Shown: piece by piece, positions 2,743 through 26,325 of the stretch
How positions within the stretch are numbered: position 1 is the stretch's first letter
Layout of the letters: each line of letters starts with the position of its first letter
Origin: a virus
Length of the DNA: 38,661 nt
Direction: 5' to 3' (one strand)
IMG/VR virus record: IMGVR_UViG_3300048823_000077
Coordinates: 1-38,661 of that record
Translations under genes and position numbers: made by a program
Notes under the pieces: generated by a model
Seen by the model: only the letters and a program-made list of their open reading frames with translations
What the model was told of the DNA's origin: nothing
Database searches by the model: none

Positions 2743-2793
2743 TCCCTACCAATAGTTTAGAAGTTGTTTTACCTCATCGCGGATGATGGAGGC

Positions 2794-2819
2794 AAAATAC
2801 GGCGTAAAGTCCGTATTTT
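2794..2819 (-). terminator. 9-bp perfect hairpin in leader of the GIY-YIG gene
   Basis: AAAATACGG (2794-2802) pairs perfectly with CCGTATTTT (2811-2819) around an 8-base loop. Read on either strand it has an A-run before and a T-run after the stem, so it could end transcription in both directions. It lies 52 bases before the GIY-YIG start, where it could attenuate transcription into that gene. Confidence 0.5.
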
Positions 2820-3036
2820 CAAGATTGTGTGTCGAGTGTGGTAAGCAAGTCGGTTGATCCCCTACCTAATACGGAGAAAAGCCGATTCTTTCTTTACATA
2901 GACGGGCACTCGTCTTCTCAACTTGAAGTTGGGTAGGGACGAAAAATTTCAAGTGATGCGACTCGCGTTACGTACATATATACAACAAAATAAAGGATTT
3001 AATTGGCTAAACTTCTTCAAGTAAATAAATTTTAAA

Positions 3037-4646: not shown

Positions 4647-4687
4647 TCTGTGTTGTGTAGTCAAAATATCAAAGGAAGGAGACCAGC

Positions 4688-6370: not shown

Positions 6371-8998
6371 TTATCCCATACCCTCGCCGCTACCTTCTGG
6401 ACCTTCGTCATCCATTTCGGCCTCAATCGCGTTCAGGTCGAGACCCTTCGTGATGCGCTTGCCGAGATCGGTGTTGGTCATGAGCCAGTCACCCACGGAG
6501 TTGTAGATGTTGCTCAAAAGCTCGTTAAACTTCGAGTCCTTGACGGTGAACATCGCGTCTTCTAGTTCTCGCTTCGCATCCTCTGGATCGATATCTAAGA
6601 ACTCGTAGATAATATCCACTGGCAACGATCCCTTACTATATAAATTGAAAAGCATATCGTAAATATCGCCTTGATCGCGAAGCGCCATGCGACTAAAGGA
6701 GATTTTGGGATATATCCAGCGGGGACGGCCATACTTGTCCATCTCGTAATATCCGCGTTTTTGGCTGTAAGGTTTGAAAATCTGCTCCTCGATAACGTAT
6801 GTCAAGAGATCACGGAACTGGGCATAGGACGTTTCCATCAATTGCAGTTGCACGTGGTTGCCTGAGTACATGCCCTCACCAATGAGGATTTCAGGCGACA
6901 GGCCAAGACCGATTGCCAAGTCGGAGTTCGTGTGCTGCCACTCAGCGTCGAGCGAGAGCAGACGACCTTCGGAACCAATCTCATCCCATCTACATTCGTA
7001 ATTGACCACGACGGAATAATCGGGATCGGCGATAGCTTCGTCGATGTGGGCGCGTAAGGCAATAACTTCATTCGCTGGAATGTCAGGGGCTACAATCAAA
7101 CGCTTTGGCGTCATGTTACGGGATGCCAACGTGCTCTGCACCTGACGCAGCTTCTCGCGGTAGATAACCGTGCGGATGCAGCGTTGCAGGATCGAGCGGC
7201 CATGCAGTTCGTAGCCGCTCTTCTTGCGGGCGAAGTGGATGACGTAAGAGCCTTGGAACGGGTCGTTGTTCAGCGGAATCTTGCCTTCCGTCTGAATCAC
7301 GTCCTTCACTTGGTTCGGGACATCAGGATCATCCATGTAGGCTTGCTTCTGAGCCTCGGGTGGTTTGTAGTAGATCGTCGGACCATCCACCATCGTGCCC
7401 TCGTTGGTGATCTCGATCTGCTCAGGCGGAAGAATCTGAATGCGATCAGGTCCCTCGTAATCCTTATTCTCGATGTGGCTGAAGAGTTCCAGTTCTTCGC
7501 GCTTCTTCTCACGAATTTCCTTCAATTCTTCGAGCAGTTCTTTCTTCTTTTCGAGCAACTTGAGGAGGTGCTTCATTTCCATCAACTCACGCTGTGCCGA
7601 AATCGTGGCACCCATGGCGATAGCGTCCTTCACGCCCCCAGCGGCATCAGCGGGAGTAATCGGACCACCTCCACCGCCGCCTCCACCACCCATTGGGGCA
7701 CCGCCGCCCATACCTTCAACGTCGCCAAGACCGCCCTCACCTAACGGGGCACCTTCGCCGCCTGCCGCTGGGTCACCAGCAGCGGGGTCGCCCGCAGGGG
7801 CGTCTGCGCCCGGAGGCGTACCGCCCCCAGCATCACCCGTAGGTGGTGCCGCAGCGGGTGCGGCCGGAGCGGGTGGTTGAGCAACTTTGGACATTTCGGC
7901 TAAGATTTGAAGCGGGTAAGTATCGTCACCTTTTTCGTTACGGATAAGCTTCGCCAGCTTGTCGTTAGTCTCCGAAGCCAAAATCATCTTGGCGAGTTTC
8001 TTCGGGGCAATGCCTATGACCTTGGCAAACTTACGAGCACCCTTGTTGAGTTCTTTACGGGTCGCCTCGATCTTAACCGCGACTTTGGCAAGGTCTTTGA
8101 TAATGCTGTCGGCCCCGAAATCGAAATCAATGCCCGCAGCCTTGAGTTCATCAAACACTGAAGCGCGTTTCTTGATCCACGAAGAACGCTTCTCAGGTTG
8201 GAGGTATTCCAAAATCTTATCCGCCGTACCGCCTTCGGGTGGGTGGAAAGCTCCATCTCTGCTACCCGCTTCGGTGCTGTCGCCGCCACGTTTGCCTTCC
8301 TTTTCAAGAATTTCCTTGGCTGCCGAGCATGGTTCAATGTCTTCGGGGTCTTCGATGAATAGGAAGGTCTCTCCAATGCACCAGTACTCTCTGGCCGCAT
8401 CGATGATGACTTGAAACAGGCGGGTGCGGTTCATAAACCGCTGGAAATCGTCGTACACATAATCGGCGTACTCTTCGGACGAGCACTTCGGTTTCTCTGC
8501 CGTCATCTTACTGACGGGGAGTTCCGTGTGCATATCGATTGCGCGACCGACGATTGGGTCACGATCATACGCCAGACGATAGAAACGAAGTTCTTCTGCA
8601 CGGGACGCAGGAAGCTCAAGGGCATCAACTGGAAACTCGTAAGAGTAGTAGCCGATGTTATTCGAGTCTTGGATATCGGCAGCGCCCAAACCGCCGTCAC
8701 TGAAAAGACCAGCAGCCGTTTTAGCCGCCTCGTACATGCCCCAGCCAGAGTTTGGGTTGGTGCTTACGGTGCCGCTACGTGCCGCGCCTTGGATAATACG
8801 GAGCTTGTTCATCGCCGAATCTTCGACGATCTCGCCCTTATTGTTCATCTGCGTGTACTTGCCAGCCGATGCGAATTCCTTGTTGCCTACTTTGGCAACC
8901 TTCCGCTTTACCATGGACGGTGAGATGCGCGTATTTGCGCCTCGCTGACGGGTAGTAACCCGCTTACCTTGACCGTCGTCTGCTGTCTTATTTGCCAT
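6371..8998 (-). CDS. Portal protein with large low-complexity insert
   Basis: 875 aa. The portal vertex ring through which DNA is packaged. The core regions are residues 110-220 (FYRLAYDRDPIVGRAIDMHTE, then REYWCIGETFLFIEDPE) and 540-800 (DPFQGSYVIHFARKK, ELHGRSILQRC, then a WQHTNSDLAIGLGLSPEILIGEG region and a FKPY...YPKISF end), typical of large myovirus-type portals. In between, about residues 370-465 are rich in Pro, Ala and Gly, with nine glycines in a row, followed by a charged helical segment (about 470-510). This makes it longer than the usual 500-600 aa. GAGAGG lies upstream of ATG 8998. Confidence 0.88.
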   Translation of the reverse strand: MANKTADDGQGKRVTTRQRGANTRISPSMVKRKVAKVGNKEFASAGKYTQMNNKGEIVEDSAMNKLRIIQGAARSGTVSTNPNSGWGMYEAAKTAAGLFSDGGLGAADIQDSNNIGYYSYEFPVDALELPASRAEELRFYRLAYDRDPIVGRAIDMHTELPVSKMTAEKPKCSSEEYADYVYDDFQRFMNRTRLFQVIIDAAREYWCIGETFLFIEDPEDIEPCSAAKEILEKEGKRGGDSTEAGSRDGAFHPPEGGTADKILEYLQPEKRSSWIKKRASVFDELKAAGIDFDFGADSIIKDLAKVAVKIEATRKELNKGARKFAKVIGIAPKKLAKMILASETNDKLAKLIRNEKGDDTYPLQILAEMSKVAQPPAPAAPAAAPPTGDAGGGTPPGADAPAGDPAAGDPAAGGEGAPLGEGGLGDVEGMGGGAPMGGGGGGGGGPITPADAAGGVKDAIAMGATISAQRELMEMKHLLKLLEKKKELLEELKEIREKKREELELFSHIENKDYEGPDRIQILPPEQIEITNEGTMVDGPTIYYKPPEAQKQAYMDDPDVPNQVKDVIQTEGKIPLNNDPFQGSYVIHFARKKSGYELHGRSILQRCIRTVIYREKLRQVQSTLASRNMTPKRLIVAPDIPANEVIALRAHIDEAIADPDYSVVVNYECRWDEIGSEGRLLSLDAEWQHTNSDLAIGLGLSPEILIGEGMYSGNHVQLQLMETSYAQFRDLLTYVIEEQIFKPYSQKRGYYEMDKYGRPRWIYPKISFSRMALRDQGDIYDMLFNLYSKGSLPVDIIYEFLDIDPEDAKRELEDAMFTVKDSKFNELLSNIYNSVGDWLMTNTDLGKRITKGLDLNAIEAEMDDEGPEGSGEGMG

Positions 8999-17209: not shown

Positions 17210-17458
17210 TTAAAATCTTTTCTTTGCTAATTGAACCTTGCGGTTCCGAATCTGCCGCACGCCCTCGGCGCACTGGCAAGCTTTCTGCAAGGCTAAACAC
17301 GTTCCACAAAAGGATTCGGAAATCAAAATACTGCTGTTGATTCCCTCTTTGAAGTACGGATTGCAGCTATACTCCATGTTGCACGGTTCCAACTTAGTGC
17401 CTTTCTGATCCGCGTGGTTTTTCACGTTGTTCAGAAAAATACAAGTATCACAACCCAT
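17210..17458 (-). CDS. Small Cys-rich protein
   Basis: 82 aa starting MGCDTCIFLNN, with eight Cys (CDTC, EPC, SC, FCGTCLALQKACQC) and a basic tail. It is probably zinc-binding. AAAGAGAG precedes the start. It is embedded between two structured RNA segments and is one of the few coding islands there. Function unknown. Confidence 0.65.
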   Translation of the reverse strand: MGCDTCIFLNNVKNHADQKGTKLEPCNMEYSCNPYFKEGINSSILISESFCGTCLALQKACQCAEGVRQIRNRKVQLAKKRF

Positions 17459-17479
17459 CTTTTCTCTCTTTCAAAGCGT

Positions 17480-17501
17480 CGGCGGGGCTTTCGCCCCGCC
17501 G
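17480..17501 (-). ncRNA. 9-bp GAAA-tetraloop hairpin
   Basis: CGGCGGGGC (17480-17488) pairs perfectly with GCCCCGCCG (17493-17501). Read leftward the loop is GAAA, a GNRA tetraloop, which favours a minus-strand RNA. It lies between two small genes beside the duplicated hairpins at 17512-17589. Confidence 0.6.
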
Positions 17502-17511
17502 TTGGTCGGGG

Positions 17512-17589
17512 CCACTTGGTTTACGTCCAAGAACGGGGGCGAGACGGCGAACCGTTTACCCTCCACCACTCGGTTTACGTCCGAGAACG
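17512..17589 (-). repeat. Duplicated 24-nt hairpin element with covariation
   Basis: Two copies (17512-17535 and 17566-17589) of CGTTCYYGGACGTAAACCRAGTGG on the minus strand. Each forms a 5-bp stem (CTTGG/CCAAG or CTCGG/CCGAG) around the same loop ACGTAAA. The single stem difference is compensated on both sides, which supports an RNA hairpin under selection. The stop of the upstream gene lies just beyond. Confidence 0.7.
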
Positions 17590-17594
17590 TGAAC

Positions 17595-17894
17595 TTATCC
17601 GCAGATTTCAGGCCCGCAGCTTTCGGCGTTACCCGTGCTCTCGTTGGGCTCGTACACTTTAGCTGCGTAAACGTACTCACCTTCGGCGAAAGGTCCTGCC
17701 GAAGCATTGACCAGCATGTACCCCAGTTTAGCCAATGTGTCGGCGTTTGTCAAGAGGCGCATTTTATTGGTCGTCTGACCGTAATGCGAAGCTTCAACTT
17801 CCAACACTGGGCGACCCTTTGTATCTGTCGTAACGGCGAATTGCACTCCACCGCCCCCGATCTCCAAAAACACTTCATTCAAAGTCTCGCCCAT
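17595..17894 (-). CDS. Hypothetical phage protein
   Basis: 99 aa. It begins MGETLNEVFLEIGGGGVQFAV and looks alpha/beta: a strand pair (LEIGGGGVQFAVTTDTKGR, VLEVEASHYG), then helix TNADTLAKLGYMLVNASAG and a short polar tail with two Cys. AAAGGAT lies upstream of the ATG. A similar layout (strand pair, then a helix and a residue-binding tail) is seen in the 64-aa protein at 19766. It is surrounded by structured RNA. Confidence 0.65.
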   Translation of the reverse strand: MGETLNEVFLEIGGGGVQFAVTTDTKGRPVLEVEASHYGQTTNKMRLLTNADTLAKLGYMLVNASAGPFAEGEYVYAAKVYEPNESTGNAESCGPEICG

Positions 17895-18864
17895 ACGATC
17901 CTTTCAAAATGCTATTGGGACCTAGCTGCGACTGGCTACGCAGGGTCGTCGGCTCCCGCCGAAGGTCTTGCCTATCAAGCGTCCCAACAGCAATCTTCGC
18001 CCCCACTGTTCTCGCGGTATTACCGTCCGATTGGATACGGAAGCGTTGCCCCAATTCTTGGGTTACCCGTTCAGGGGGAGCACCCACCCATCAATCTCAA
18101 AACTATGCGGGCACGAGCTTGGTTAGGCTCCGACCTTCTGCCGTAGTTGCAACGGCCTCCCGATCTTGCTTAGTCGCCGCACAAACTTTCCCAGTCGGCA
18201 GGGACTCCCGATTCTCCACCCTGCATGACCCCAGTCCCATTTAAGGGACACAGTTGAGCCTGTGCTCGAAGACTGTGCTGACCGCTTGGGTCTCCACGTT
18301 CGGAATCCCGTCGCAGCGGGAACCCCTTCCAAACGCTTTAGCGTCTCTATTTCTGGATCGTGTCTATTTCCGCCACGACTGGAAAAACGATTGTGGCGGG
18401 GGATAGCAGCCGTAAAACACGGCCCCACTAGGCTCACGCCCACGTTCTTTTGGTAAATCTCCCTTGAAGAACGATTGCTCATATCTCGTATCGTAGCTCG
18501 AACAGGAGCAGGACACAGAGACACCGCCACAAAATTACTACTCCCATCCGAGGCAGTTCGAACTGCTTGTCGGCGTCGGCTGTAACCAGCGAACGAGCGA
18601 TTTGAGCTTACCTTTCGGCAGAGGCTTGCGGAGTTCGTTAAAAGCGGCCTGAGAAGCGATTTCACAGGTTTCACGCCGCACGCTTTTACGTTATGGCGGT
18701 TCCCCGAACAATGACTCCACTCAGGCACAAAGTCAAAGTCCAATGAGGACCTGCTAATCACAGCCGCTATTACGCGGCAACCTTACTTGTTGTCAGGCGG
18801 CTGTCGGCTTTGGCCCTGAGGATTTACACAGGAGCGACTCACCTATCATGACCTGACAACAAAA
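17895..18864 (-). ncRNA. Large structured RNA candidate (GOLLD/ROOL-like setting)
   Basis: 970 bases with no believable frame on either strand, ending next to a tRNA. It is dense with perfect stems: GTCCCAATAGC (17911-17921) with GCTGTTGGGAC (17981-17991), one G-U; 18198-18203/18219-18224; 18249-18254/18272-18277; 18370-18376/18393-18399; 18409-18413/18419-18423; 18443-18449/18467-18473; 18763-18767/18774-18778; and an 11-bp stem 18787-18797/18852-18862. A TCGGC-GGGA-GCCGA hairpin with a GNRA loop appears on the minus strand. Large ornate RNAs such as GOLLD and ROOL sit beside phage tRNAs; family membership is not shown. Confidence 0.6.
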
Positions 18865-18943
18865 TGGTTGCAGAGGCTTGGAGTCGCACCAAGTACACCG
18901 TTCGGCTTATGAGGCCGATGAGCCGCAGTTGCTCGATCCCTGC
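18865..18943 (-). tRNA. tRNA with CAT anticodon, divergent (Met or Ile2)
   Basis: Anticodon arm CGGC-CTCATAA-GCCG, T arm CTTGG-TGCGACT-CCAAG and an encoded CCA-like end. Acceptor GCAGGGA/CCTCTGC has a G-U and a mismatch. The T loop lacks the usual TTC, and one extra A precedes CCA. It resembles a diverged duplicate of the tRNA-Met at 21115. The 5' half overlaps the end of the HNH gene. Confidence 0.6.
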
Positions 18944-19290
18944 TTCAAACTTAACAATCCCGCGTGAACCTTGCGATGACAATTCTCACACAGAACCACG
19001 CACTTTGCAATCTCAGCTAAGACTCGTTCTCGACTGAATTGCCTTGCGATTGCGTATGCTATCGTAAATTCTTTCTTGTCCTTGTCCACGTGATGAAATG
19101 AAAGGCAGCAATAAGCCGTTTCAGGACACAACTTGCAGGACAATTTCAAAGACTGGAAGAGCTTTCGTATCTCCTCCTTGTACCGTTTCTTTCGCTGGCT
19201 AACCAGCCGCTTGTGCTCCGCTCTGTACACGGGATCGTTGTTGTAACGATCTCGAAGGTACTTTGCGTGTTTTGCAGGGGTAGTAGGCAC
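18907..19290 (-). CDS. HNH endonuclease ending inside a tRNA gene
   Basis: 127 aa from GTG 19290; the frame extends to TTG 19314, but the promoter box lies there. Residues 1-45 are basic and helical (AKHAKYLRDRY, HKRLVSQRKKRYKEE). The HNH core is CKLCPETAYCCLSFHHVDKDKKEFT, then CVVLCENCHRKVHAGLL. The last 12 codons lie within the tRNA at 18865-18943. A TATACT box is 6 bases before GTG. Typical of a homing nuclease that has settled beside a tRNA. Confidence 0.82.
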   Translation of the reverse strand: MPTTPAKHAKYLRDRYNNDPVYRAEHKRLVSQRKKRYKEEIRKLFQSLKLSCKLCPETAYCCLSFHHVDKDKKEFTIAYAIARQFSRERVLAEIAKCVVLCENCHRKVHAGLLSLKQGSSNCGSSAS

Positions 19291-19302
19291 CCTACAAGTA
19301 TA
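19291..19302 (-). promoter_or_regulatory. -10 box directly before HNH start
   Basis: TATACT (19297-19302, minus), preceded by TGTGG, with 6 bases to the GTG at 19290. The arrangement matches that at 6354-6364 for the other HNH gene. Confidence 0.45.
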
Positions 19303-19380
19303 CCACAGCCGCAACTCGATCCCCGGGAGACGCTAGGCGACTCCACTTGCAAGGCGCGTGCGCCTCACTGGGGAAACCTT

Positions 19381-19457
<77 letters not shown>

Positions 19458-19765
19458 TCAAAATTATACAGCGGCCTGAGCCCACATCCACCTTCTACGG
19501 GGCTAACCCCTCGGGCGACTGCGATGCATCCCGAACCCAAGCCGACTTCCCTACCGAGGCAATGGATGAATGCCCCTTCACTAAAATGGGCTGAACGAAT
19601 GGTCAGGGTTTTTTACTGTTTAAGGTCGCCCGCCAGCCCGCTGTTGGCCGACCCCCTTTACTGCCATTTACACAGCAAGGGTAGCCTGTCCTCCGTGGTC
19701 TACCAGCGTACCACGATACTCGACAAGGTACAACTATCTGGGAATCCTTGTCAATCGCCGTGCTA
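19458..19765 (-). ncRNA. Structured gene-free segment B
   Basis: 308 bases without a gene. Perfect stems: CGTGGT (19694-19699) with ACCACG (19710-19715), and GACAAGG (19722-19728) with CCTTGTC (19746-19752). A GGTCG/CGACC stem and a GGGG-TTA-GCCCC hairpin lie further along. It is probably part of the same RNA-rich transcript as the tRNAs. Confidence 0.45.
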
Positions 19766-19960
19766 CTAAACTTCTCGCAACATGCTCTGCAATTGCTCGG
19801 CCAACTCTTTCGCCTGATCGCGGCTCACATAAACCGTGCCCGAATCCCCGCAATCCATGCGGATGCCGATCACGTTGGGCTCGTCGCCATCAGCCATCAA
19901 CCAAATGTGGTCGGTTGCGTTGCCGTTCAAGCGCAATGTCTTATCCAGTGCAATAGCCAT
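19766..19960 (-). CDS. 64-aa hypothetical protein
   Basis: ATG 19960 with GGAGG 5 bases upstream is preferred to longer frames. The product MAIALDKTLRLNGNATDHIW continues with WLMADGDEPNVIGIRMDCGDSG, TVYVSRDQAKELAEQLQSMLREV: beta strands then a C-terminal helix. Small proteins of this shape are common in large phages. Function unknown. A coding island between structured RNA segments. Confidence 0.7.
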   Translation of the reverse strand: MAIALDKTLRLNGNATDHIWLMADGDEPNVIGIRMDCGDSGTVYVSRDQAKELAEQLQSMLREV

Positions 19961-20255
19961 ACGGCCTCCAGAAAGAAAAAACCTCGGCAAGTGCACTCCC
20001 CCGTTTCGACCCGCTGGGTACTTATTCCCCAGAAGGGAGAGGCACGACGACCAAACAGAGTCGGGCACCACGTCGGCTGTCATCCGGGAGTCGGGCATAT
20101 CCGCAAAGCCCCAACTCCCTTGAACCTGCTTGTTAGCGTCCCGCAGCGGAGCGGGTGCCGAGGCACATCAGGGCATGGTCGCAACTGTCGCCAAATTGAG
20201 CCGCCTGTAATTGCCGGCGGCACCCTCATTACAATAATACGCTAGTTTCAAAAGA
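19961..20255 (-). ncRNA. Structured gene-free segment C with H-type pseudoknot
   Basis: 295 bases without a gene. GCCGCC (20200-20205) pairs with GGCGGC (20216-20221), and TGTAAT (20206-20211) pairs with ATTACA (20228-20233). The two stems interleave as an H-type pseudoknot. GGGAGT...ACTCCC and CCCGC/GCGGG hairpins and a direct repeat GAGTCGGGCA (near 20071 and 20090) lie beside it. Confidence 0.5.
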
Positions 20256-20570
20256 TTATCTACCTTCAACTTTATCGCGCCGACGAAATTCAGCTTGCGT
20301 CCACGATTGGCGAAGCGCCTTACGGCGTTTATGAGCACAAGAAAAATACTTTGCCGAGTGGCACTGACGACAGCCGCAGTTGAGGTTGAACTTTGCGTAG
20401 CGACCCCACTCCGTGGGTGTGTACCACCCCATTTGCTGCTGGTAAAACGGAGAACCCTCGTGCGGCTCCTCGTTGTAGTGGGTCCAAATTTTCGTCGCGA
20501 TGAACTTGCGACGGGCGATTACACGTTCGCGCTGGTGACGACGTTCGTCACGAGACGTTGGATGAGACAT
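20256..20570 (-). CDS. Basic Cys/His-containing hypothetical protein
   Basis: 104 aa from ATG 20570 (GGGGAG upstream); a GTG at 20594 is an alternative. The N-terminal half is a basic helix (MSHPTSRDERRHQRERVIAR). It then has a CGCRQCHSAKYFSCAH cluster that probably binds zinc. It is likely nucleic-acid-binding from charge and Cys pattern, but no family is recognised. Confidence 0.65.
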   Translation of the reverse strand: MSHPTSRDERRHQRERVIARRKFIATKIWTHYNEEPHEGSPFYQQQMGWYTPTEWGRYAKFNLNCGCRQCHSAKYFSCAHKRRKALRQSWTQAEFRRRDKVEGR

Positions 20571-20911
20571 GGCTTTCACTCCCCGACCGCTCACACCTTA
20601 TGCGGTATGTGCGGTCTTGCTAGGGTTAGTAGCCATCTGCTCGTCCTCCTGTGAATTGAATTGTCGGGTATCCGATACTGTGTTTGGGCAGTTAGTAGCC
20701 AGATGCTTTTGGCCCTATAGCCTCGGAAGGGTCCGCAGACTCCCGACTTCCCTAAATTTCGGCGGCGTTTCAGCCGCCAGCACTGCATAACCAAAACCGA
20801 GCGCGGTGCACCGCCTCGGCTGGATATTCAAAGAACGGGTGCGTCTGTTCTGCACAAACTTGTGGGGCTTTCCCCATCCGGCTCGAAGCCTACGGGTCTT
20901 AAACCTACGCT
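20571..20911 (-). ncRNA. Gene-poor structured segment D
   Basis: 340 bases. GGCGGC (20761-20766) pairs with GCCGCC (20773-20778). CCGAG (20797-20801) pairs with CTCGG (20815-20819) around a GC-rich palindrome. A GGGG-AAA-GCCCC hairpin lies nearer the tRNA. A 12-codon frame (MATNPSKTAHTA) at about 20599-20637 has an AGGAGG site 8 bases upstream and may be a leader peptide. Confidence 0.4.
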
Positions 20912-20983
20912 TTAGCGTGGTGGGATTCGAACCCACGTCCTTCCCCGTCAATAGGGGTTGCCGATCCGCTGGGCGTCACGCTA
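20912..20983 (-). tRNA. tRNA, probable Gln(TTG), odd anticodon loop
   Basis: Perfect 7-bp acceptor TAGCGTG/CACGCTA and T arm GTGGG-TTCGAAT-CCCAC. The D stem GCC/GGC is short. The anticodon region CCCC-TATTGAC-GGGG gives TTG only if position 33 is A instead of the invariant T, and 27-43 is A-A. CCA is not encoded. The identity is therefore uncertain. Confidence 0.6.
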
Positions 20984-20990
20984 AAGAACC

Positions 20991-21111
20991 TTTGGTGGAT
21001 GGTTCGCTTGGGTCGCTTTCGCGTCTTTCCGCCTTTTGGCTCCCAACATCCCCGCCCCTGCTGTTAACACGACTGTACGTGACTGCTTACGCTATCAGGG
21101 CATCCACCAAA
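20991..21111 (-). ncRNA. Structured element closed by an 11-bp stem
   Basis: TTTGGTGGATG (20991-21001) pairs perfectly with CATCCACCAAA (21101-21111), enclosing about 100 bases with no gene, between two tRNAs. A compact structured RNA or tRNA-processing element. Confidence 0.55.
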
Positions 21112-21114
21112 AAT

Positions 21115-21192
21115 TGGTGCCGGATGCTGGGATCGAACCAGCGGCCTTCGGCTTATGAGACCGACGCTCTGAGCCAACTGAGCTAATCCGGC
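21115..21192 (-). tRNA. tRNA-Met(CAT), elongator type
   Basis: GCCGGAT/ATCCGGC perfect acceptor, D stem GCTC/GAGC, anticodon arm TCGGT-CTCATAA-GCCGA, T arm GCTGG-TTCGATC-CCAGC, CCA encoded. The G1-C72 pair separates it from the initiator. Ile2 (modified CAT) cannot be excluded. Confidence 0.9.
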
Positions 21193-21251
21193 TAAACGTC
21201 GGGGAATCGGTGACCGACTCCCCAGTTCCTCCCACACGTGGTGGGTGAATC

Positions 21252-21419
21252 TTAAAAATTCAACTTACTCGCCAGAATCTCAGGTCGAATTACAACTTTC
21301 GACCAATCTGGTTGTTCGAACCATTCGGGGTGCTCGTAATAGTTACGGAGATGACTATGGATTGGAAGACCTTCATTATCTAGTATGCCAAATCCCGTCT
21401 CATCAGTATCTTGCGGCAT
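21252..21419 (-). CDS. 55-aa acidic hypothetical protein
   Basis: ATG 21419 with AAGGAG 7 bases upstream. The product MPQDTDETGFGILDNEGLPI continues HSHLRNYYEHPEWFEQPDWS and ends VVIRPEILASKLNF. It is acidic and aromatic, with no recognised family. It follows the 116-aa gene by 9 bases and is probably co-transcribed with it. Confidence 0.7.
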   Translation of the reverse strand: MPQDTDETGFGILDNEGLPIHSHLRNYYEHPEWFEQPDWSKVVIRPEILASKLNF

Positions 21420-21428
21420 TCAATCTCC

Positions 21429-21779
21429 TTAAAAGTCTGGAAAGAACGCGGTTGCTTTCTTTGCTTTGGGTGCCGCCTCAGCGGTATCTTCCGAAAGCTC
21501 GATCTGCCCCTGTTCTCTCACGACTTCATCATACGGCTTACTGTTAATCTGAGCAAGCTCTGTTTCAAAACCACTATACAAGTTGCTGCCCGATGCCAGC
21601 TTGGTGAGGTGAGCGACCTCGCGTTCAGCGTCGGCCTTCTCTTCCAAAGTCACTGGGCTCTCGGCCAACCACACGTCGATGAACGATAGCTCGCCCTTCT
21701 CAGCGGCTTTCTTCCACGGGTCATAGGTCTTTACGTCAACCTTCTCGTGACCCTCTACGCCTACACGAATCTTTGACAT
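21429..21779 (-). CDS. Hypothetical phage protein
   Basis: 116 aa from ATG 21779 (AGAGGA upstream). It starts MSKIRVGVEGHEKVDVKTYD and continues with helices (PWKKAAEKGELSFIDVWLAE, TLEEKADAEREVAHLTKLA) and a Lys/Ala-rich tail. It is helical and acidic, and might be a virion or assembly protein. No family recognised. Confidence 0.65.
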   Translation of the reverse strand: MSKIRVGVEGHEKVDVKTYDPWKKAAEKGELSFIDVWLAESPVTLEEKADAEREVAHLTKLASGSNLYSGFETELAQINSKPYDEVVREQGQIELSEDTAEAAPKAKKATAFFPDF

Positions 21780-21882
21780 GGCGGTCCTCTGTCTAATAGG
21801 TTTGATATTCACCAAGTGCCTATAGGACGATACTGCTTTCGTTGGAAAAGAGCCGCGAGTTTTCGCAAAAACCACATAAATT

Positions 21883-21957
21883 TGGTCGGGGAGGCGAGAT
21901 TCGAACTCGCGATCCCATGCTCCCGAAGCATGTGCGTTACCGCTACGCTACTCCCCG
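21883..21957 (-). tRNA. tRNA-Pro(CGG)
   Basis: CGGGGAG/CTCCCCG perfect acceptor with the C1-G72 pair and A73 typical of proline tRNA. Anticodon arm CATGC-TTCGGGA-GCATG (CGG, G37), T arm GCGAG-TTCGAAT-CTCGC, CCA encoded. Confidence 0.9.
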
Positions 21958-21961
21958 AAAT

Positions 21962-22135
21962 TGGTTGCAGGGCTGGGAGTCGAATTGAACCCAGCATCTC
22001 TCGGATCGCTGCTCAGCGTCTTGCGTCAACGTTGCTCGTCTATTTCCTTGCGGATCACCGTCTCACATCAACTTGCCAGCGCAACGACCCCGCGCACTTT
22101 CGTGCGGGATGTTCTGCCATTTGAACTACCTGCAA
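21962..22135 (-). ncRNA. 174-nt tRNA-like RNA with insert replacing the anticodon arm
   Basis: The ends look like a tRNA: TTGCAGG pairs with CCTGCAA, followed by CCA; the D arm GTTC-AAATGGCA-GAAC is perfect; the T stem CTGGG/CCCAG holds a 12-base loop TTCAATTCGACT that looks like a duplicated TTCRA. Between D and T arms are about 120 bases with no anticodon hairpin. They hold a CCCGC...GCGGG stem with a GCAC-GAAA-GTGC end, a CGTTGC/GCAACG stem and a CGCT/AGCG hairpin. It could be an interrupted tRNA or a tRNA-like domain RNA. Confidence 0.55.
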
Positions 22136-22168
22136 ACTCTTGCCGCCAGTCTTGCTACACGTGGCGGG

Positions 22169-22372
22169 TTACCCCACCTTACTCGAAAAACTTTTCTTGA
22201 ACTCTTCAACGACGACTTCGAGGCTATGTCTTGCTTCCGCCTCATCCGCGCCATAACCTACGAGTTCTGCACCGTTGTGGTGCCCGAACTCGTTGAAGAA
22301 GAAAGGAAGTTCAACCCTCGCTTCATAGCTGTCGTGCTTCTCTTTGCCATCGTTGATGATTTTTGCATCCAT
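22169..22372 (-). CDS. 67-aa hypothetical protein
   Basis: Starts MDAKIINDGKEKHDSYEARV and continues ELPFFFNEFGHHNGAELVGY, ending with helix DEAEARHSLEVVVEEFKKSF. The strand-strand-helix layout resembles small phage double-stranded-RNA-binding-like or inhibitor folds, but no family can be named. GGA lies 6 bases before the ATG. Confidence 0.6.
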   Translation of the reverse strand: MDAKIINDGKEKHDSYEARVELPFFFNEFGHHNGAELVGYGADEAEARHSLEVVVEEFKKSFSSKVG

Positions 22373-22629
22373 AAAATTCCGATGGCGTATGAAGTGAGCA
22401 TTGATCCTTGGCTGAGCACCATCAACACCGTTTGCAAAATCTTGGGGCGACCTAAGCTGGCACTGGTACTTGCGTGGTCTCCAGCCATCGACGTATTATG
22501 CACAGCCTGCGACCGAGTACCCGGCGACCTCGCAGACCGCTCCACCCCGTTCTTCGATACCTGCCTGATCCCACGTTGCAGACTTTCGTCTGTGCGAGTC
22601 AGCCCTCGGGCGGGGCACTTTCAAAACTT
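22373..22629 (-). ncRNA. Structured gene-free segment E
   Basis: 257 bases without a gene on the minus strand. CTGCGA (22507-22512) pairs with TCGCAG (22530-22535). CAGAC (22579-22583) pairs with GTCTG (22588-22592) around a loop that is GAAA on the minus strand. Same style as the other segments. Confidence 0.45.
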
Positions 22630-22719
22630 TGGTCAGGATGAGAGGATTTGAACCTCCAAGGTCATAAAGACACCTGCATCCGAGGCAGGACGGCTGCCAA
22701 GTTACCGTTCTACACCCTG
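22630..22719 (-). tRNA. tRNA-Pro(CGG)-like with long variable arm
   Basis: CAGGGTG/CATCCTG acceptor (C1-G72, A73). Anticodon arm CCTGC-CTCGGAT-GCAGG gives CGG with A37. T arm GGAGG-TTCAAAT-CCTCT; CCA encoded. The 15-base variable region and a D arm placed two bases late (TAGA-ACGG...CCGT) are unusual and are shared with the next tRNA. Confidence 0.7.
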
Positions 22720-22732
22720 ACATTGTAAAATT

Positions 22733-22819
22733 TGGTCGGGGTGGGGAGATTCGAACTCCCAGTGATCTTATCTCCCGCTTCCAAAGCGGGTCGGCTCCCA
22801 ACTACCGATTTACACCCCG
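22733..22819 (-). tRNA. tRNA-Pro(TGG) with long variable arm
   Basis: CGGGGTG/CACCCCG perfect acceptor with A73. Anticodon arm CCCGC-TTTGGAA-GCGGG (TGG). T arm GGGAG-TTCGAAT-CTCCC; CCA encoded. It has the same late D stem (TCGG/CCGA) and a 13-base variable region. Confidence 0.8.
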
Positions 22820-23137
22820 ATTATGCGTTTTTCCGCCTAAAAGCGTTTTATACGGAAAACCGCCTAAAGCACAAAATCGAGGCAAATGTCTTGGAATTCA
22901 GTTGCTTACAGCGCCCCGATGCCTAGCAGCACGGGGTTGAGGCTCTTAGAGCACTTCACCCCCGCGCACGGTAGGCGTGCACGGTCGAAACATCGGGGTT
23001 GGTCGCATTGTGTTCATAAAGTCGTCCCGATTCGTGCCCAGAGCCGTAGCTAAACTACAGATGCTCACGAATCGTAAGATTGGTGTGGGGCACGAGTTTC
23101 CACCGTTCTGTAATCTGCGCCCTTCCCAATCTCTACT
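22820..23137 (-). ncRNA. Structured 5' leader of the tRNA/RNA transcript
   Basis: Region between the promoter at 23138-23172 and the first tRNA. CGATTCGTG (23028-23036) pairs perfectly with CACGAATCG (23066-23074), with an inner GTAG/CTAC stem. CCCCGATG (22914-22921) pairs perfectly with CATCGGGG (22991-22998) and encloses GCACG/CGTGC and GGGGTGA/TCAACCCC hairpins, forming a branched, cloverleaf-like fold. No gene is seen. Confidence 0.55.
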
Positions 23138-23172
23138 ATAATACCATGGAAGTTTGAATTTTAGTTAGGAAA
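23138..23172 (-). promoter_or_regulatory. Phage promoter, TTTCCTAAC-N20-TATTAT
   Basis: TTTCCTAAC (23164-23172), 20 bases ending TGG, TATTAT (23138-23143), read leftward into the tRNA and structured-RNA zone. Same element and spacing as at 3037, 26116 and 27151, but here it drives non-coding RNA. Confidence 0.75.
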
Positions 23173-23180
23173 ATCGAAAT

Positions 23181-23231
23181 TTATTTCCAAGGCACGGGGT
23201 CATGGGCGTTCAGTTGTTCGCGGCGGTCCAT
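23181..23231 (-). CDS. Possible 16-aa peptide
   Basis: ATG 23231 with AGGAG just upstream, inside the end of the previous gene; product MDRREQLNAHDPVPWK. It is too short for confidence, but the site and the overlapping layout match other genes here. Confidence 0.35.
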   Translation of the reverse strand: MDRREQLNAHDPVPWK

Positions 23232-23365
23232 AAGCTCCTGCCTTCGCGGTTCGTGTATTTCGGCTGCACGCCATCTACGATCAGCGGCTCCCGCGTGCCC
23301 TCCACAACGACGTTCTTCCGACCCGTCCAAACTCTAGTCTTGGCGGATTTCTTCACGGCTTTCAC
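23210..23365 (-). CDS. 51-aa basic hypothetical protein
   Basis: GTG 23365 overlaps the NADAR stop as GTGA, with GAGGATG upstream. The product MKAVKKSAKTRVWTGRKNVV continues VEGTREPLIVDGVQ and ends YTNREGRSLWTAANN. Basic N-terminus; no recognised family. Translationally coupled to the NADAR gene. Confidence 0.65.
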   Translation of the reverse strand: MKAVKKSAKTRVWTGRKNVVVEGTREPLIVDGVQPKYTNREGRSLWTAANN

Positions 23366-23976
23366 AGTTCATCCTCCACGATTTGCGGCGAGGCGTTGTC
23401 AAAACCGCCAGCACACGACTCACATTCCTGCCGCTTGGTCTTGCCGTGCTTGCACATCGGTTCAGCAGTTCCCAGTCCGTAAAACTGCCGTACTTCCATC
23501 AGCAGCCTACCGAGCCAATTCTCGCCGAGGGGTGCATGAGGAAAATCACACTTGCCCATGCACACGCCCCAGAACGTGTCGTGCCAGTGATTGCCTTCGA
23601 TCAACTCGGCTTGAAACGTGGAGATCAGCTTGCGCTTGGGAATGCTCGGCCTGAACTTCTGCATGAGCAGATCGCGCATGATACCGATCTTGACTTCTTC
23701 CCAGTCGGGACGTAGCTTCAAGGACCGTCCCATCCTCTTTGCTCTCGCGGACGTTACGCCGAGGTAACGGAACTTCTCACGTTGCGCTGCATCGAGCGTC
23801 TTTGCCGCTTGGTATGCATGTTCAACCGAGGTATACACCTCAACCATGGCGTCGGGCATCTCATGGGCGTAAATCATCCCATCGGTGGTGACCCATAGCC
23901 GAACTTCGCCGAGTGCGAAGTTAGACAAGAAAGCCCAAGCTCCGGTAAAACTATCGATTTTGGTTGGGAGTTTTAT
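23362..23976 (-). CDS. NADAR-family protein, apparent ATA start
   Basis: 204 aa if started at ATA 23976, 188 aa from TTG 23928. NADAR features: SFTGAWAFLSNFALGEV, TSVEHAYQAAKTLD, GNHWHDTFWGVC, GENWLGRLLMEVR. The C-terminus adds a CKHGKTKRQECESC cluster. The family includes N-glycosidases that act on ribosyl-linked substrates; some remove ADP-ribose from guanine and so reverse DarT-type toxins, which would suit a phage. The LSNF box needs the residues before TTG 23928, and no ATG or GTG exists there: ATA sits where ATG would make the usual ATGA overlap. Confidence 0.85.
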   Translation of the reverse strand: MKLPTKIDSFTGAWAFLSNFALGEVRLWVTTDGMIYAHEMPDAMVEVYTSVEHAYQAAKTLDAAQREKFRYLGVTSARAKRMGRSLKLRPDWEEVKIGIMRDLLMQKFRPSIPKRKLISTFQAELIEGNHWHDTFWGVCMGKCDFPHAPLGENWLGRLLMEVRQFYGLGTAEPMCKHGKTKRQECESCAGGFDNASPQIVEDEL

Positions 23977-24176
23977 GTGCCCTCTGATCTGGAACTTCGG
24001 ATTATGGTTTTAGCAATGACTCTCGCTGCCAATGTTCGTTCGAGAGCTTCTGCAAACGCCATGCGGGTGCACTCTTCGCAACCGGCGGGGAACGATACGG
24101 GTGCGATCATGAGGGTAACCTTGGTGTCGTGTGGTCCGCAAACGTAACCATTTGTAGTTTCAGCTATTCTCAACAT
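23973..24176 (-). CDS. Small Cys-containing hypothetical protein
   Basis: 67 aa from ATG 24176 (GAGG 6 bases upstream). Starts MLRIAETTNGYVCGPHDTKV, with later Cys (GCEECTR) and helix MAFAEALERTLAARVIAKTI. It probably has one zinc site. Its TAA stop overlaps the presumed ATA start of the NADAR gene. Confidence 0.6.
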   Translation of the reverse strand: MLRIAETTNGYVCGPHDTKVTLMIAPVSFPAGCEECTRMAFAEALERTLAARVIAKTIIRSSRSEGT

Positions 24177-24184
24177 CTTCGTCC

Positions 24185-24367
24185 TCAATCATGACAGCCG
24201 CATTTCTTCGGGCATTGAAAGATCAGTGGGCCTGTGGCGAATCCGTTGTACACCCCGCCAAGAGCACAACAGTCGCACTCGGCACGTCCAGCAGTCAGGA
24301 TCGCCTGCCGCAGGTCGGCAATGTCAAAAGTAGGTGTCGGGTCAATCCCGTGCCATCCCTCAAGCAT
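24185..24367 (-). CDS. Small Cys-rich protein
   Basis: 60 aa from ATG 24367. MLEGWHGIDPTPTFDIADLR is followed by ECDCCALGGVY and a C-terminal CPKKCGCHD cluster, so it is probably zinc-binding. It overlaps the upstream gene's end by 8 bases. Function unknown. Confidence 0.55.
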   Translation of the reverse strand: MLEGWHGIDPTPTFDIADLRQAILTAGRAECDCCALGGVYNGFATGPLIFQCPKKCGCHD

Positions 24368-24509
24368 ACTCACTGTCCGCTGCTTCGTCGCTGGAGATCA
24401 CGCGGCAGTTGTCAGGACGGCATTCCGTCGCCGCCACGCACTCAGCTTCCAGTTCACACTCGGCTTCAATCTCCACCGTACCGCTGTATTCAACCTGATA
24501 TTTCGGCAT
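24360..24509 (-). CDS. 49-aa acidic Cys-containing protein
   Basis: Three successive ATG codons (24507-24515) follow GGAGG; the last is best spaced. MPKYQVEYSGTVEIEAECEL, then EAECVAATECRPDNCRVISS: a beta-type, acidic protein with four Cys, similar in layout to small phage proteins of unknown role. Overlaps both neighbours. Confidence 0.55.
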   Translation of the reverse strand: MPKYQVEYSGTVEIEAECELEAECVAATECRPDNCRVISSDEAADSEYA

Positions 24510-24762
24510 CATCATCCTCCATCGACAGTGGCAACTCTGCCGCACATTCGAGCCAATCCTTTTGAGTGGGCTCGTCCATAAGCTCCCAGTGCTCGTACAT
24601 GTAGTCCAGCGACGAGGCGATCATCGCGTTCTTTTGCCTCACCAACTGGTTGTACGCTTCATTGTCACCACGGGCGAATGCCAGCATCACTGCCTTGACG
24701 ACGATCAGCAATTCCATGTGCCTCTTGGCACAGTTGTTACAGAATGTTTGAACGTCGTCCAT
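24490..24762 (-). CDS. 90-aa hypothetical protein
   Basis: MDDVQTFCNNCAKRHMELLI, then helices (KAVMLAFARGDNEAYNQLVR, SSLDYMYEHWELMDEP) and an acidic tail. One CxxC pair. A TATTAC box lies 5 bases before the ATG and no ribosome site is seen, so a leaderless transcript is possible. Function unknown. Confidence 0.6.
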   Translation of the reverse strand: MDDVQTFCNNCAKRHMELLIVVKAVMLAFARGDNEAYNQLVRQKNAMIASSLDYMYEHWELMDEPTQKDWLECAAELPLSMEDDDAEISG

Positions 24763-24777
24763 ATCGGGTAATACTGA

Positions 24778-25107
24778 CTATTCGATTGTTCCGTCTTTGT
24801 GAACCATCAGGATTTCTTCGCTGATGCGGTACGCCATGACCACTTCCTGATCGTAATACTTAGCGGTCATCCAGCAAATCTCCTCGATCTGGCGTCTGGT
24901 GCCGCTGATCTTGACGGGGATCATCCGCTCGGCGAACACGTTCTTGCTGACGGGGTGAACCCACTGACCTTTCTCTACGGGACGAATGGTCAAGCCGCCC
25001 GTGATGGCACGGACGCGGGTATCCCACTTCTTGTGGAAGCCCTTGACATATTCGGTCTGGGTCCGATCAATCGTCGGCACCAAGATTTCCCAGAGTTCGT
25101 GCATCAT
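24778..25107 (-). CDS. Conserved-type hypothetical phage protein
   Basis: 109 aa from ATG 25107, which overlaps the upstream stop as ATGA. MMHELWEILVPTIDRTQTEY, then KKWDTRVRAITGGLTI, KGQWV, FAERMIPVKI, MTAKYYDQEVVMAYRISEEI. I recall proteins of this pattern in other large phages and in plasmids, without an assigned function. Alpha/beta, about 110 aa in all cases I remember. Confidence 0.7.
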   Translation of the reverse strand: MMHELWEILVPTIDRTQTEYVKGFHKKWDTRVRAITGGLTIRPVEKGQWVHPVSKNVFAERMIPVKISGTRRQIEEICWMTAKYYDQEVVMAYRISEEILMVHKDGTIE

Positions 25108-25352
25108 AAGTTCCCCTTCTTCAACATCTGGCGGACTTGATCGGGCGAAAACATAACTGGCACCCTGCCCACGCAAACCTTGGGGTGCTGCGCCTTAAGC
25201 CTCTCAATAACTTCCTCGATCCCCTGACGGTTTATGCCCGCGTCCATGATGATATTCAGGAGCTTTTCCAGCCCCTTCATCTCGCTTACCCGCATGAACC
25301 CGATGTTCAACGGGTATTCCGTCCCGTCAGGGAGAATCGCGTACATCCCCAT
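25104..25352 (-). CDS. Hypothetical protein
   Basis: 82 aa from ATG 25352 (AAGGGA upstream); the frame stays open to TTG 25448, so the start is uncertain. MGMYAILPDGTEYPLNIGFM, then helices KGLEKLLNIIMDAGINR and GIEEVIERLKAQHP, ending with SPDQVRQMLKKGNL. It is helical and unrecognised. Coupled to the 109-aa gene. Confidence 0.55.
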   Translation of the reverse strand: MGMYAILPDGTEYPLNIGFMRVSEMKGLEKLLNIIMDAGINRQGIEEVIERLKAQHPKVCVGRVPVMFSPDQVRQMLKKGNL

Positions 25353-25431
25353 CGGTCGGTCCCTTGCCGTGCAAAATGGTGAGCGATCTCTATCGTGCCT
25401 CTGCCCATCATCGTACTCGACTCGGATCGAA

Positions 25432-25665
25432 TTAGACTGGCTCGGCAATGTCGCTCTCTTTGAGAAGCTGGTACGTCATCTGGTACGGCAGGCGGTGCGA
25501 GCCCTCGGCGACATCCGCAACGGCGTTGTAGGTGTCAACCACCTTCTTGAGTTCGACGGTGGTTAGCGGGCGTACCAGAAGATCAATCTCTTCGCCAATC
25601 ACGTTAGTCACTACGATAGCGGCGAGAGTGCCGTCACGGTCTACTGCAAGTCTTGAGAGTCCCAT
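25432..25665 (-). CDS. 77-aa hypothetical protein
   Basis: AGGAGA upstream of ATG 25665. MGLSRLAVDRDGTLAAIVVT (beta pair), then RPLTTVELKKVVDTYNAVAD (helix) and a polar end. Unrecognised; part of the overlapping small-gene run. Confidence 0.6.
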   Translation of the reverse strand: MGLSRLAVDRDGTLAAIVVTNVIGEEIDLLVRPLTTVELKKVVDTYNAVADVAEGSHRLPYQMTYQLLKESDIAEPV

Positions 25666-25775
25666 GTCTTCTCCTGAATTTTCTTAAGTGTCAACCAAAC
25701 AGCTATTCGACGTACTAAGGGCTCCAATCTACTCGGCCCGAATACGGGCGTTTTACCGTCCGTGAGCAGCTTCAT
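25641..25775 (-). CDS. 44-aa protein
   Basis: ATG 25775 overlaps the upstream stop as ATGA, with GGAG 8 bases before it. MKLLTDGKTPVFGPSRLEPL, then VRRIAVWLTLKKIQEKTWDS. Overlaps the next gene by 25 bases. Unrecognised, but the coupling supports expression. Confidence 0.55.
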   Translation of the reverse strand: MKLLTDGKTPVFGPSRLEPLVRRIAVWLTLKKIQEKTWDSQDLQ

Positions 25776-25909
25776 TTATTTTTCTCCAGTTTGGCAATCT
25801 CAGCATACATGTCCATGATGGGCTGAGGGGTGCGACTCACATGCCAGTTGTTCTCTTCCCAGTGCCGCACCTTCTCTTTCAGCAGTCGAAGATAGATTTG
25901 GTTATCCAT
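25772..25909 (-). CDS. 45-aa helical protein
   Basis: ATG 25909 overlaps the upstream stop by one base (TGATG), with GGGGG upstream. MDNQIYLRLLKEKVRHWEEN, then PIMDMYAEIAKLEKNK. Helical and charged. Unrecognised. Confidence 0.6.
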   Translation of the reverse strand: MDNQIYLRLLKEKVRHWEENNWHVSRTPQPIMDMYAEIAKLEKNK

Positions 25910-26109
25910 CAATCTAGCCCCCATTTGTTCAGCCAAATTTTGAACATTGTCCAACGAAGAAGCTCCGGGTTGCTGATCGGATGCCAGCCCTGAGCCGTGT
26001 CATCGAGAGAGGTTAACCCGCGTTCGTCTTGAATGATGCACAGGTCCACTGGACAATCTGATGTGGCGGGAATCCACCAACACTCGTACCTGCCTGTTGT
26101 TGTGTACAC
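25909..26109 (-). CDS. 66-aa hypothetical protein, leaderless start
   Basis: GTG 26109 lies 6 bases after the TAGAAT box of the promoter at 26116-26150. MYTTTGRYECWWIPATSDCP, then VDLCIIQDERGLTSLDD and a Trp-rich end (WTMFKIWLNKWGLD). It is the first gene of the leftward run of small genes ending at the NADAR locus. Confidence 0.65.
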   Translation of the reverse strand: MYTTTGRYECWWIPATSDCPVDLCIIQDERGLTSLDDTAQGWHPISNPELLRWTMFKIWLNKWGLD

Positions 26110-26115
26110 GTGGTT

Positions 26116-26150
26116 ATTCTACCATGAAGGGAGAGGATTTGGTTAGGAAA
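26116..26150 (-). promoter_or_regulatory. Phage promoter, TTTCCTAAC-N20-TAGAAT
   Basis: TTTCCTAAC (26142-26150), 20 bases ending TGG, TAGAAT (26116-26121), then 6 bases to the GTG at 26109. Drives the small-gene run to about 23181. Confidence 0.78.
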
Positions 26151-26239
26151 TCGTGGTAAGTAACCGTTTTTGTTTACAATACGTTGGAGTCTGGGAATGA
26201 CAGTTCGGACAATACTAAATGGTTTGGAAGTTCAAATTT

Positions 26240-26325
26240 TGGTGTCCGAAGGGGGACTTGAACCCCCACGACCTTGCGGTCACTGGCTCCTAAGGCCAGC
26301 GCGTCTGCCATTCCACCACTCGGAC
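26240..26325 (-). tRNA. tRNA-Leu(TAG)
   Basis: Class II. GTCCGAG/TTCGGAC acceptor, anticodon arm CTGGC-CTTAGGA-GCCAG, long variable arm, T arm GGGGG-TTCAAGT-CCCCC, CCA encoded. Confidence 0.93.

Follow-up and report, generated by a model that had tools for sequence, protein, structure and literature searches.

The closest described systems are orphan structured phage RNAs encoded near tRNAs, a broader kind that is already known and is exemplified by GOLLD and ROOL. Why large phages carry long tRNA arrays is debated, and the RNAs other than tRNAs inside them have received little study. According to PMC12286853, GOLLD RNAs are often found near phage tRNA islands, one of them downstream of a Met-tRNA, and combine a conserved 3' region with a less conserved 5' region, ROOL being another large structured phage RNA located near tRNAs. 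In phage T4, rnaC and rnaD (species 1 and 2 RNA) are small stable RNAs encoded in the tRNA cluster, on the same strand (NC_000866).

The DNA analysed here (the window) is a virus record of 38,661 bases in which 13 tRNAs are listed by Rfam and 14 by ARAGORN, every one on the minus strand. The 223,506-bp contig L003 comes from the same or a very near phage (polymerase 100% identical), and among the relatives linked through the polymerase are contigs 455, 463 and 332 kb long. Of the isolates, the one closest in its polymerase (44.9% identity across 86%) is Tunturiibacter phage Tunturi_5, with a genome of 308,711 bp; PMC11924767 treats it as an Acidobacteriota virus, a jumbo phage that encodes 43 tRNAs and a tRNA splicing ligase. 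As in the GOLLD setting, the segment under study (minus strand, 17895-18864) follows a tRNA-Met in a phage tRNA island and has a conserved 3' part and a variable 5' part. It is unlike GOLLD in that its parts are separable and in that the family module measures about 100-260 nt, many GOLLDs exceeding 800 nt. In our view, the best overall explanation, to which we give a probability of roughly 0.6, is that the segment holds separable RNA modules, one of which (domain C) would belong to a trans-acting RNA family released by tRNA processing.

A preliminary description made from the letters of the window had taken the segment for one large, ornately folded RNA read on the strand of the tRNAs. Several of its observations were borne out: the segment directly adjoins a tRNA gene, the two long-range stems that it named are present (Table 1), and no reading frame looks real. 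The longest minus-strand ORF (212 aa, 18123-18761) is without a PHROGs match at E<=0.001 and its G+C peaks at codon position 2 (0.531/0.568/0.531), a profile seen in 0 of 8 other ORFs compared; a coding gene in the segment was rejected on these two grounds. Among the relatives read, none has a clear gene replacing the RNA. Folding above chance, in contrast, was not found. The minus strand has an MFE z-score of -1.95 (1 of 20 shuffles as good) and the plus strand one of -2.68 (0 of 20), while there are 3 perfect stems of at least 8 bp with loops no longer than 120 where 1.26 are expected, and 68 of 500 shuffles reach that count. What establishes the predicted RNA is conservation with covariation, visible only by comparison, folding energy alone being insufficient. 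Covariation was scored in alignments of relatives and is strong for the modules designated domains A and C, which upholds the idea that the minus strand encodes a structured non-coding RNA next to the tRNAs of a large phage. GNRA-like loops were seen by eye in several relatives.

Table 1. Positions of the modules, helices and neighbouring features in the window and in related records
Feature	Record	Position	Strand	Remarks
tRNA-Met (CAU)	window	18869-18943	-	ARAGORN; directly 5' of the RNA segment; unlisted by the Rfam tRNA model at gathering
5' hairpin	window	18789-18860	-	arms GTTGTCAGG (18852-18860) and CCTGACAAC (18789-18797), the stem named at 18787/18852; retained in L006
Domain A, pseudoknotted module	window	18640-18788	-	alignment A8 (6 phages) and covariance model R2
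Domain A helix e	window	18763-18778	-	
Domain A helix a	window	18749-18754 with 18664-18669	-	
Domain A helix c	window	18731-18736 with its 3' arm	-	
Domain A helix b	window	18720-18726 with 18647-18653	-	
Domain A hairpin d	window	18676-18699	-	
Middle hairpin CGTTCTT...AAGAACG	window	18443-18473	-	present also in L004 (first copy) and L005
Middle hairpin GGCCGT...ACGGCT	window	18408-18424	-	GCTG/CAGC replaces GCCG/CGGC in L005
Domain C	window	18187-18386	-	member of a family without Rfam listing; covariation and covariance models R1 and R3
Domain C P1 arms	window	18376-18386 and 18187-18197	-	
Domain C core motif ACGATCC	window	18355-18361	-	
Domain C hairpin H3	window	18298-18334	-	
Domain C H4	window	18288-18292 with 18227-18231	-	encloses variable hairpins
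Domain C P5	window	18198-18224	-	loop GTGGAGAATCGGGAGTC
3' hairpin module	window	17910-17992	-	stem named at 17911/17981: TGCTGTTGGGAC (17981-17992) with GTCCCAATAGCA (17910-17921), 12 pairs, one G-U
99-aa ORF after the RNA segment	window	17595-17894	-	function unassigned; without PHROGs match at E<=0.001
Block of about 190 nt	L018	~2779-2971	-	
Block of about 190 nt	L004	5876-6112		
Block of about 190 nt	L005	4381-4604		
Block of about 190 nt	L006	6529-6764		
Block of about 190 nt	L007	6379-6570		
Permuted-tRNA-like module	L017 (also L018)	4560-4673	-	full-length YrlA match, 38.8 bits
Permuted-tRNA-like module	L015 (L008 contig)	1171-1284		full-length YrlA match, 29.4 bits
Permuted-tRNA-like module	G007 (L010 contig)	79027-79139		full-length YrlA match, 45.1 bits

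Blocks of domain C with near-constant spacing were found by blastn in the polymerase-linked relatives L004 (twice), L005 and L008, and further relatives were added through a pattern search (L018) and through the polymerase and a second blastn (L039). Two motifs are conserved, ACGATCC and GTGGAGAATCGGGANTC. The covariance model R1 gave matches at E<=0.1 in 9 of 33 records, one of which (9.4 bits, 17 positions) was taken as chance; the remaining 8 records represent 7 different phages, because L017 and L018 share one sequence, and score from 61.5 to 205.3 bits, the lowest being L063, which was outside the training. The window, present in the training of both models, reaches 174.9 bits with R1 (18175-18392) and 86.1 bits with R3. 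In the L004 contig R1 matches two places, one of them truncated: a complete domain C lies at 2747-2973, and the first copy (~7065-7460) ends abruptly within H4 and continues as sequence resembling the 99-aa gene.

When domain C was registered by hand in the 7 phages, leaving out the truncated first copy of L004, 173 of 175 cells paired and 17 of the 25 pairs changed on both sides. Since hand registration leans to structure, the test was repeated on a machine alignment of 6 sequences. Here, 92.0% of the cells were paired, against 85.6% after shuffling and 35-56% when slid; cells changed on both sides numbered 11 against 4.3 (0 of 500 shuffles as high) and pairs changed on both sides 7 against 3.5 (6 of 500), the count of further pair types not rising above the shuffles (237 of 500). 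RNAalifold recovered P1, H4 and P5 unaided, with 10 of 27 pairs doubly changed, and H3, when its register was left free, did only modestly better than chance in the individual sequences (the fractions of the 7 multiply to 1.6e-4). A first hairpin, TCGTG/CACGA, was dropped for conflicting with the longer P1 and showing no change on both sides.

Viral DNA was scanned with a pattern made only of the P5 loop (GTGGAGAATCGGGANTC), which yielded 117 matching stretches and, among them, 112 new loci (78 in L087-L164 and 34 in L165-L198), of which 24 were duplicates, leaving 88 distinct. The core, searched as ACGA[TG]-A-AA, occurs 40-170 nt upstream of the loop in 80 of these 88, a count made without exclusions by eye, against 4.7% at random places in the same loci. 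Pairs 1-3 of P5 form in all 80 members (12.6% with swapped arms) and pairs 1-4 in 72 (5.4%), and the P1 score is at least 20 in 36 (0.54% with swapped arms), the CGA of the core being fixed by construction in these members through the core requirement. In the eight coreless loci (L087, L091, L100, L103, L133, L137, L153 and L162) P5 pairs 1-3 form in three. A first, hand-filtered set of 58 loci (the first 78 minus 12 removed by eye, L133 for want of a core, and 7 duplicates) had P5 pairs 1-3 in all 58, pairs 1-4 in 53 and P1 in 31; on it rest the RNA G+C range, the open-frame counts, the P2 and P3 counts and the nine members with a tRNA downstream that are given below. In most of its members the 3' arm of P1 adjoins the end of P5 (0 nt between them). 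P2 is near its swapped control (29 of 58 against 39% at score 11) and P3 moderately above it (29 of 58 against 19% at score 15). The G+C of the RNA varies from about 0.32 to 0.69 across the viral contigs.

At E<=1, R1 found 72 matches in the first 78 new loci, a good number of them spanning the whole model. All loci having been chosen by their loop, part of each R1 score derives from that choice, and the independent evidence lies outside the loop. An alignment of 39 sequences made by R1 (A10: the window, L005, L008, L200 and 35 family loci) was kept narrow, omitting L004, L018, L039, L063, L141, L149, L160, L088, L119 and lower-scoring members. Over its 13 pairs of P1 and P5, 95.5% of the cells are paired against 55.0% in shuffled alignments, cells changed on both sides number 176 against 46.4, and the covariation score is 0.774 against 0.155, with 0 of 500 shuffles as high in each case; the count of pairs with changes on both sides does not discriminate (12 against 11.3; 233 of 500). 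R3, the model built from A10, recognises the left-out members L063, L018 and L039 with 75.5, 70.1 and 51.1 bits, respectively. It matches 15 of 34 records (known carriers included), 14 of these 15 with a single match and the other with two, the second of them weak (24.2 bits) though its core and loop can be recognised. Judged from these comparisons, the predicted helices P1 and P5 of the domain C family are almost certainly kept by covariation.

Some pattern hits were discarded: L013 and L019-L023 were set aside as coding-like DNA by eye, and two hits in genome contigs, L066, which R1 scored at 9.8 bits, and L067, which it did not match, were taken as chance. The second, divergent copy (24.2 bits) was seen in the phage of L107, on the minus strand of L224 at 1501-1645; its P5 loop is changed and its core is the same.

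Domain A is the second, pseudoknotted module of the tRNA-array setting, in which helices a and b form a pseudoknot around hairpin c. Its blocks were found by blastn in the polymerase-linked relatives L004, L005, L006 and L007. In alignment A8 (6 phages) 91.6% of the cells are paired, against 82.7% after shuffling, and 9 pairs have changes on both sides against 2.6, 0 of 500 shuffles being as high for either measure; helix e taken alone is weaker (79.3% of cells). The covariance model R2 matches 8 of 30 records, six strongly, all of them training phages, and two more weakly, one at E 3.8e-4 with the layout kept and the other at E 0.09. A lone domain A (32.9 bits) lies at 1501-1635 of L085, between the tRNA-Ile and tRNA-Thr genes of another phage, and its hairpin d bears a GAGA tetraloop.

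With both domains at hand, one may ask whether the stems and the conservation could stem from DNA sites or undetected coding, with no RNA function at all. Such a chance or artefactual origin would agree with the unexceptional folding energy, with the 23 of 58 members in which one or more of the six frames stay open throughout the short RNA, and with the location of domains A and C in arrays that contain broken and displaced copies. It is contradicted by the covariation in P1, P5, H3, H4 and the domain A pseudoknot, by the 35 members without any such frame and by the strand bias relative to tRNAs reported below, and we hold it to be extremely improbable, considering it already refuted by A10 and the 80-member counts.

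Four phages have both domains (the window, L004 in its first copy, L005 and L039), A preceding C at a spacing of about 150 to 490 nt. In L006, L007 and the L042 phage only domain A was found, and in L008, L018 and the L063 phage only domain C, with the reservation that fragmentary records may hide the partner. Moreover, a terminator-like hairpin with a T-run stands, by eye, directly upstream of domain C in L063. Since each domain is found alone and this hairpin precedes domain C, separable modules are favoured over one 970-nt RNA, and the single ornate RNA of the preliminary description gave way to a likelier reading in which minus-strand positions 17895-18864 hold a row of conserved, separable RNA modules in the tRNA array of a large phage. 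The rival reading makes the whole 970 nt one giant RNA, a GOLLD or ROOL analogue self-assembling into a cage, with domain C as the conserved 3' region and the variable 5' part as cap or linker. Its setting and layout are those of GOLLD as PMC12286853 describes them, A comes before C in the four phages, and domain C of L063 begins 787 nt after tRNA-Met. This arrangement is nevertheless not very likely, considering that A and C occur apart in three phages each, that the L063 hairpin with its T-run would come just before domain C, and that an R2 scan of the 78 wider-family loci, often directly beside a tRNA, found no domain A.

The preliminary description had wavered between GOLLD or ROOL and a new class. 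The first alternative fell, the Rfam models being unmatched, and the second stood. With the GOLLD model (RF02032) none of 12 relevant records passed the cut-off, and the one match at E<=10 (5.8 bits, located elsewhere) was taken as chance, so that identity with GOLLD was rejected. A cmscan of region 17400-19400 against 4227 families of Rfam 15, among which the ROOL and group I intron models are presumably included, returned no match at E<=5; ROOL resembles the locus in setting, and neither it nor a group I intron was detected in that region at this threshold. At the same E-value, three wider members (L102, L135 and L139) gave nothing or matches far below gathering, and ten whole family loci scanned at Rfam gathering contained tRNAs only. 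YrlA (RF02553), which has a tRNA-like module, gave sub-threshold matches in L018 and L008, where they stand on the 5' side of domain C, and in L010 (Table 1). None of 12 records exceeded its gathering score of 69, a weak signal was obtained also in 13 of 14 control genomes, and the window segment gave none. Kinship with T4 rnaC/rnaD was rejected: unfiltered R1 over T4 69000-75000 reached at best 5.5 bits, on the opposite strand and elsewhere, which is noise.

Searches for carriers beyond the collected records gave few positives. The uncultured phage LR756501 (735,411 bp) carries one member, found with a short core probe and confirmed by R1; LR756503, matched by the core probe as well, has the same length and place, and is a sequence match only. 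The core probes of two members retrieved 4 records and 1 record, three of these matches being in annotated protein genes. Longer probes of L063 and L018 retrieved 69 and 33 records with weak partial matches, which were taken as chance or tRNA; among the matches listed, these probes are covered to at most 13% and 10%, respectively, and several matches fall on tRNA genes. In whole genomes, R3 under stricter filters found no member in T4, Bacillus phage G, Atu_ph07, CcrColossus, XacN1, KVP40, S-CRM01, Lak-A1 (a metagenome assembly) or Tunturi_5, and none in a sample of 112 + 120 bacterial genomes from two phyla, likewise under stricter filters and with no positive-control genome. Window positions 17595-19000 had no match in a DNA comparison with annotated phages, and promoter and terminator scans of the window region yielded nothing above chance for the RNA. 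Among relatives, the stretch 17926-18021, which overlaps the 3' hairpin module, matches L006 (blastn, 73.6% over 106 columns).

The domain C family appears from these scans to be new, since the members scanned match none of the 4227 Rfam families and no kinship emerged with the tRNA-array RNAs tested. No title or abstract describing it was found in the literature covered, from which preprints, most subscription papers and supplements are absent, and prior publication is possible; a text search for the letters of the loop gave, among the matches listed, only works unrelated by title.

The neighbourhood of the family is enriched in tRNAs. A tRNA or tmRNA called by ARAGORN lies within 500 nt in 43 of the 80 members, against 24.1 expected by random placement in the same loci, and within 50 nt in 30; the nearest one is on the same strand in 41 of the 43. 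In the remaining 37 members there is none within 500 nt, and 30 of the 80 have none in the fetched locus, these ARAGORN counts being possibly low (an Rfam tRNA at L107 529-640 was uncounted). The first set behaved as follows: 27 of 58 near a tRNA against 13.3 expected, 26 of the 27 on the same strand. In addition, L005, L039, L018 and L063 resemble the window in having a tRNA-Met (CAU) on the 5' side of domain C, at a distance that varies. Proximity to tRNAs and the shared strand fit an RNA that is made and trimmed together with tRNAs.

Other features of these arrays were observed in passing. Five phages share, within their tRNA arrays, a further block some 190 nt long and 80-85% identical (Table 1), which in L018 is closed by GACCGAG/CTCGGTC. 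In L039 (~8285-8330 and ~8452-8497), upstream of domain A, there are repeats like tRNAs cut down to acceptor stem and D arm, ending in CCGCAACC. In the window, an HNH endonuclease ORF (18907-19314, minus strand; PHROGs E 3.4e-21) overlaps tRNA-Met, and the rest of the tRNA array (19460-26240) has few long ORFs and may contain further structured RNAs.

As for function, domain C could be a cis-acting, riboswitch-like leader of the next gene. Its two conserved loops would suit a ligand site, and a small Cys-rich ORF follows domain C, by eye, in L005, L018 and L063. The next item differs, however, among carriers (the 99-aa ORF in the window, an HNH-like reading frame in L008), and in nine members (L104, L109, L115, L121, L126, L127, L150, L154 and L161) a tRNA or tmRNA starts within 50 nt downstream, which makes a leader quite improbable. 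Somewhat less improbable, if still unlikely, is a small ribozyme, for instance one that cuts or processes the tRNA-array transcript, as its small size, its two conserved internal motifs in a junction and its location between tRNAs that need cutting might suggest. Against it, no Rfam family, ribozymes included, matched the window or the three wider members above noise, and tRNA arrays are cut by host RNases, which do so without domain C. Compared with these two roles, it seems probable that domain C is a trans-acting RNA.

In the mechanism that we propose for this trans-acting RNA, domain C would be co-transcribed with the tRNAs and released by tRNA-processing nucleases. P1 would stack on P5, like the acceptor on the T arm of a tRNA, a stacking that is conceivable since the 3' arm of P1 begins at the end of P5, and CGAU of the core may pair with AUCG of the P5 loop, in the manner of the tRNA elbow. 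The loop GUGGAGAAUCGGGANUC accompanies the upstream core ACGAU-MMA-AAA far above chance. The fourth letter of the core is T in 55 of 58 members and G in 3, CGA being fixed by the core pattern and AUCG by the loop pattern; as the two elements are near-constant and partly fixed by the search patterns, their pairing is something that covariation cannot show. CGAU is present in 7 of 7 domain C sequences found through kinship, and AUCG is kept in L008, L039 and L224, whose loops deviate from the pattern. The likeness to tRNA thus comprises array position, a P1 that abuts P5 as the acceptor abuts the T arm, and a possible loop-loop contact; unlike a tRNA, domain C receives no ARAGORN or Rfam call and has no anticodon arm or T loop by eye. 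Acting in trans, the RNA would most likely engage tRNA-handling enzymes or the ribosome during infection, although a role in tRNA metabolism or translation can be put forward only tentatively.

The short core and the two near-constant motifs make direct in-vitro synthesis, probing, pull-down and testing feasible. A still speculative extension is that domain C represents a widespread class of phage RNA, processed from tRNA arrays and endowed with a tRNA-like elbow, which, in phages as large as the 735-kb record, might target the tRNA or translation apparatus of the host or else defences directed at tRNAs. The covariation, the usual single copy, the broad range of G+C and the enrichment near tRNAs suggest that this RNA probably does something general in infection.
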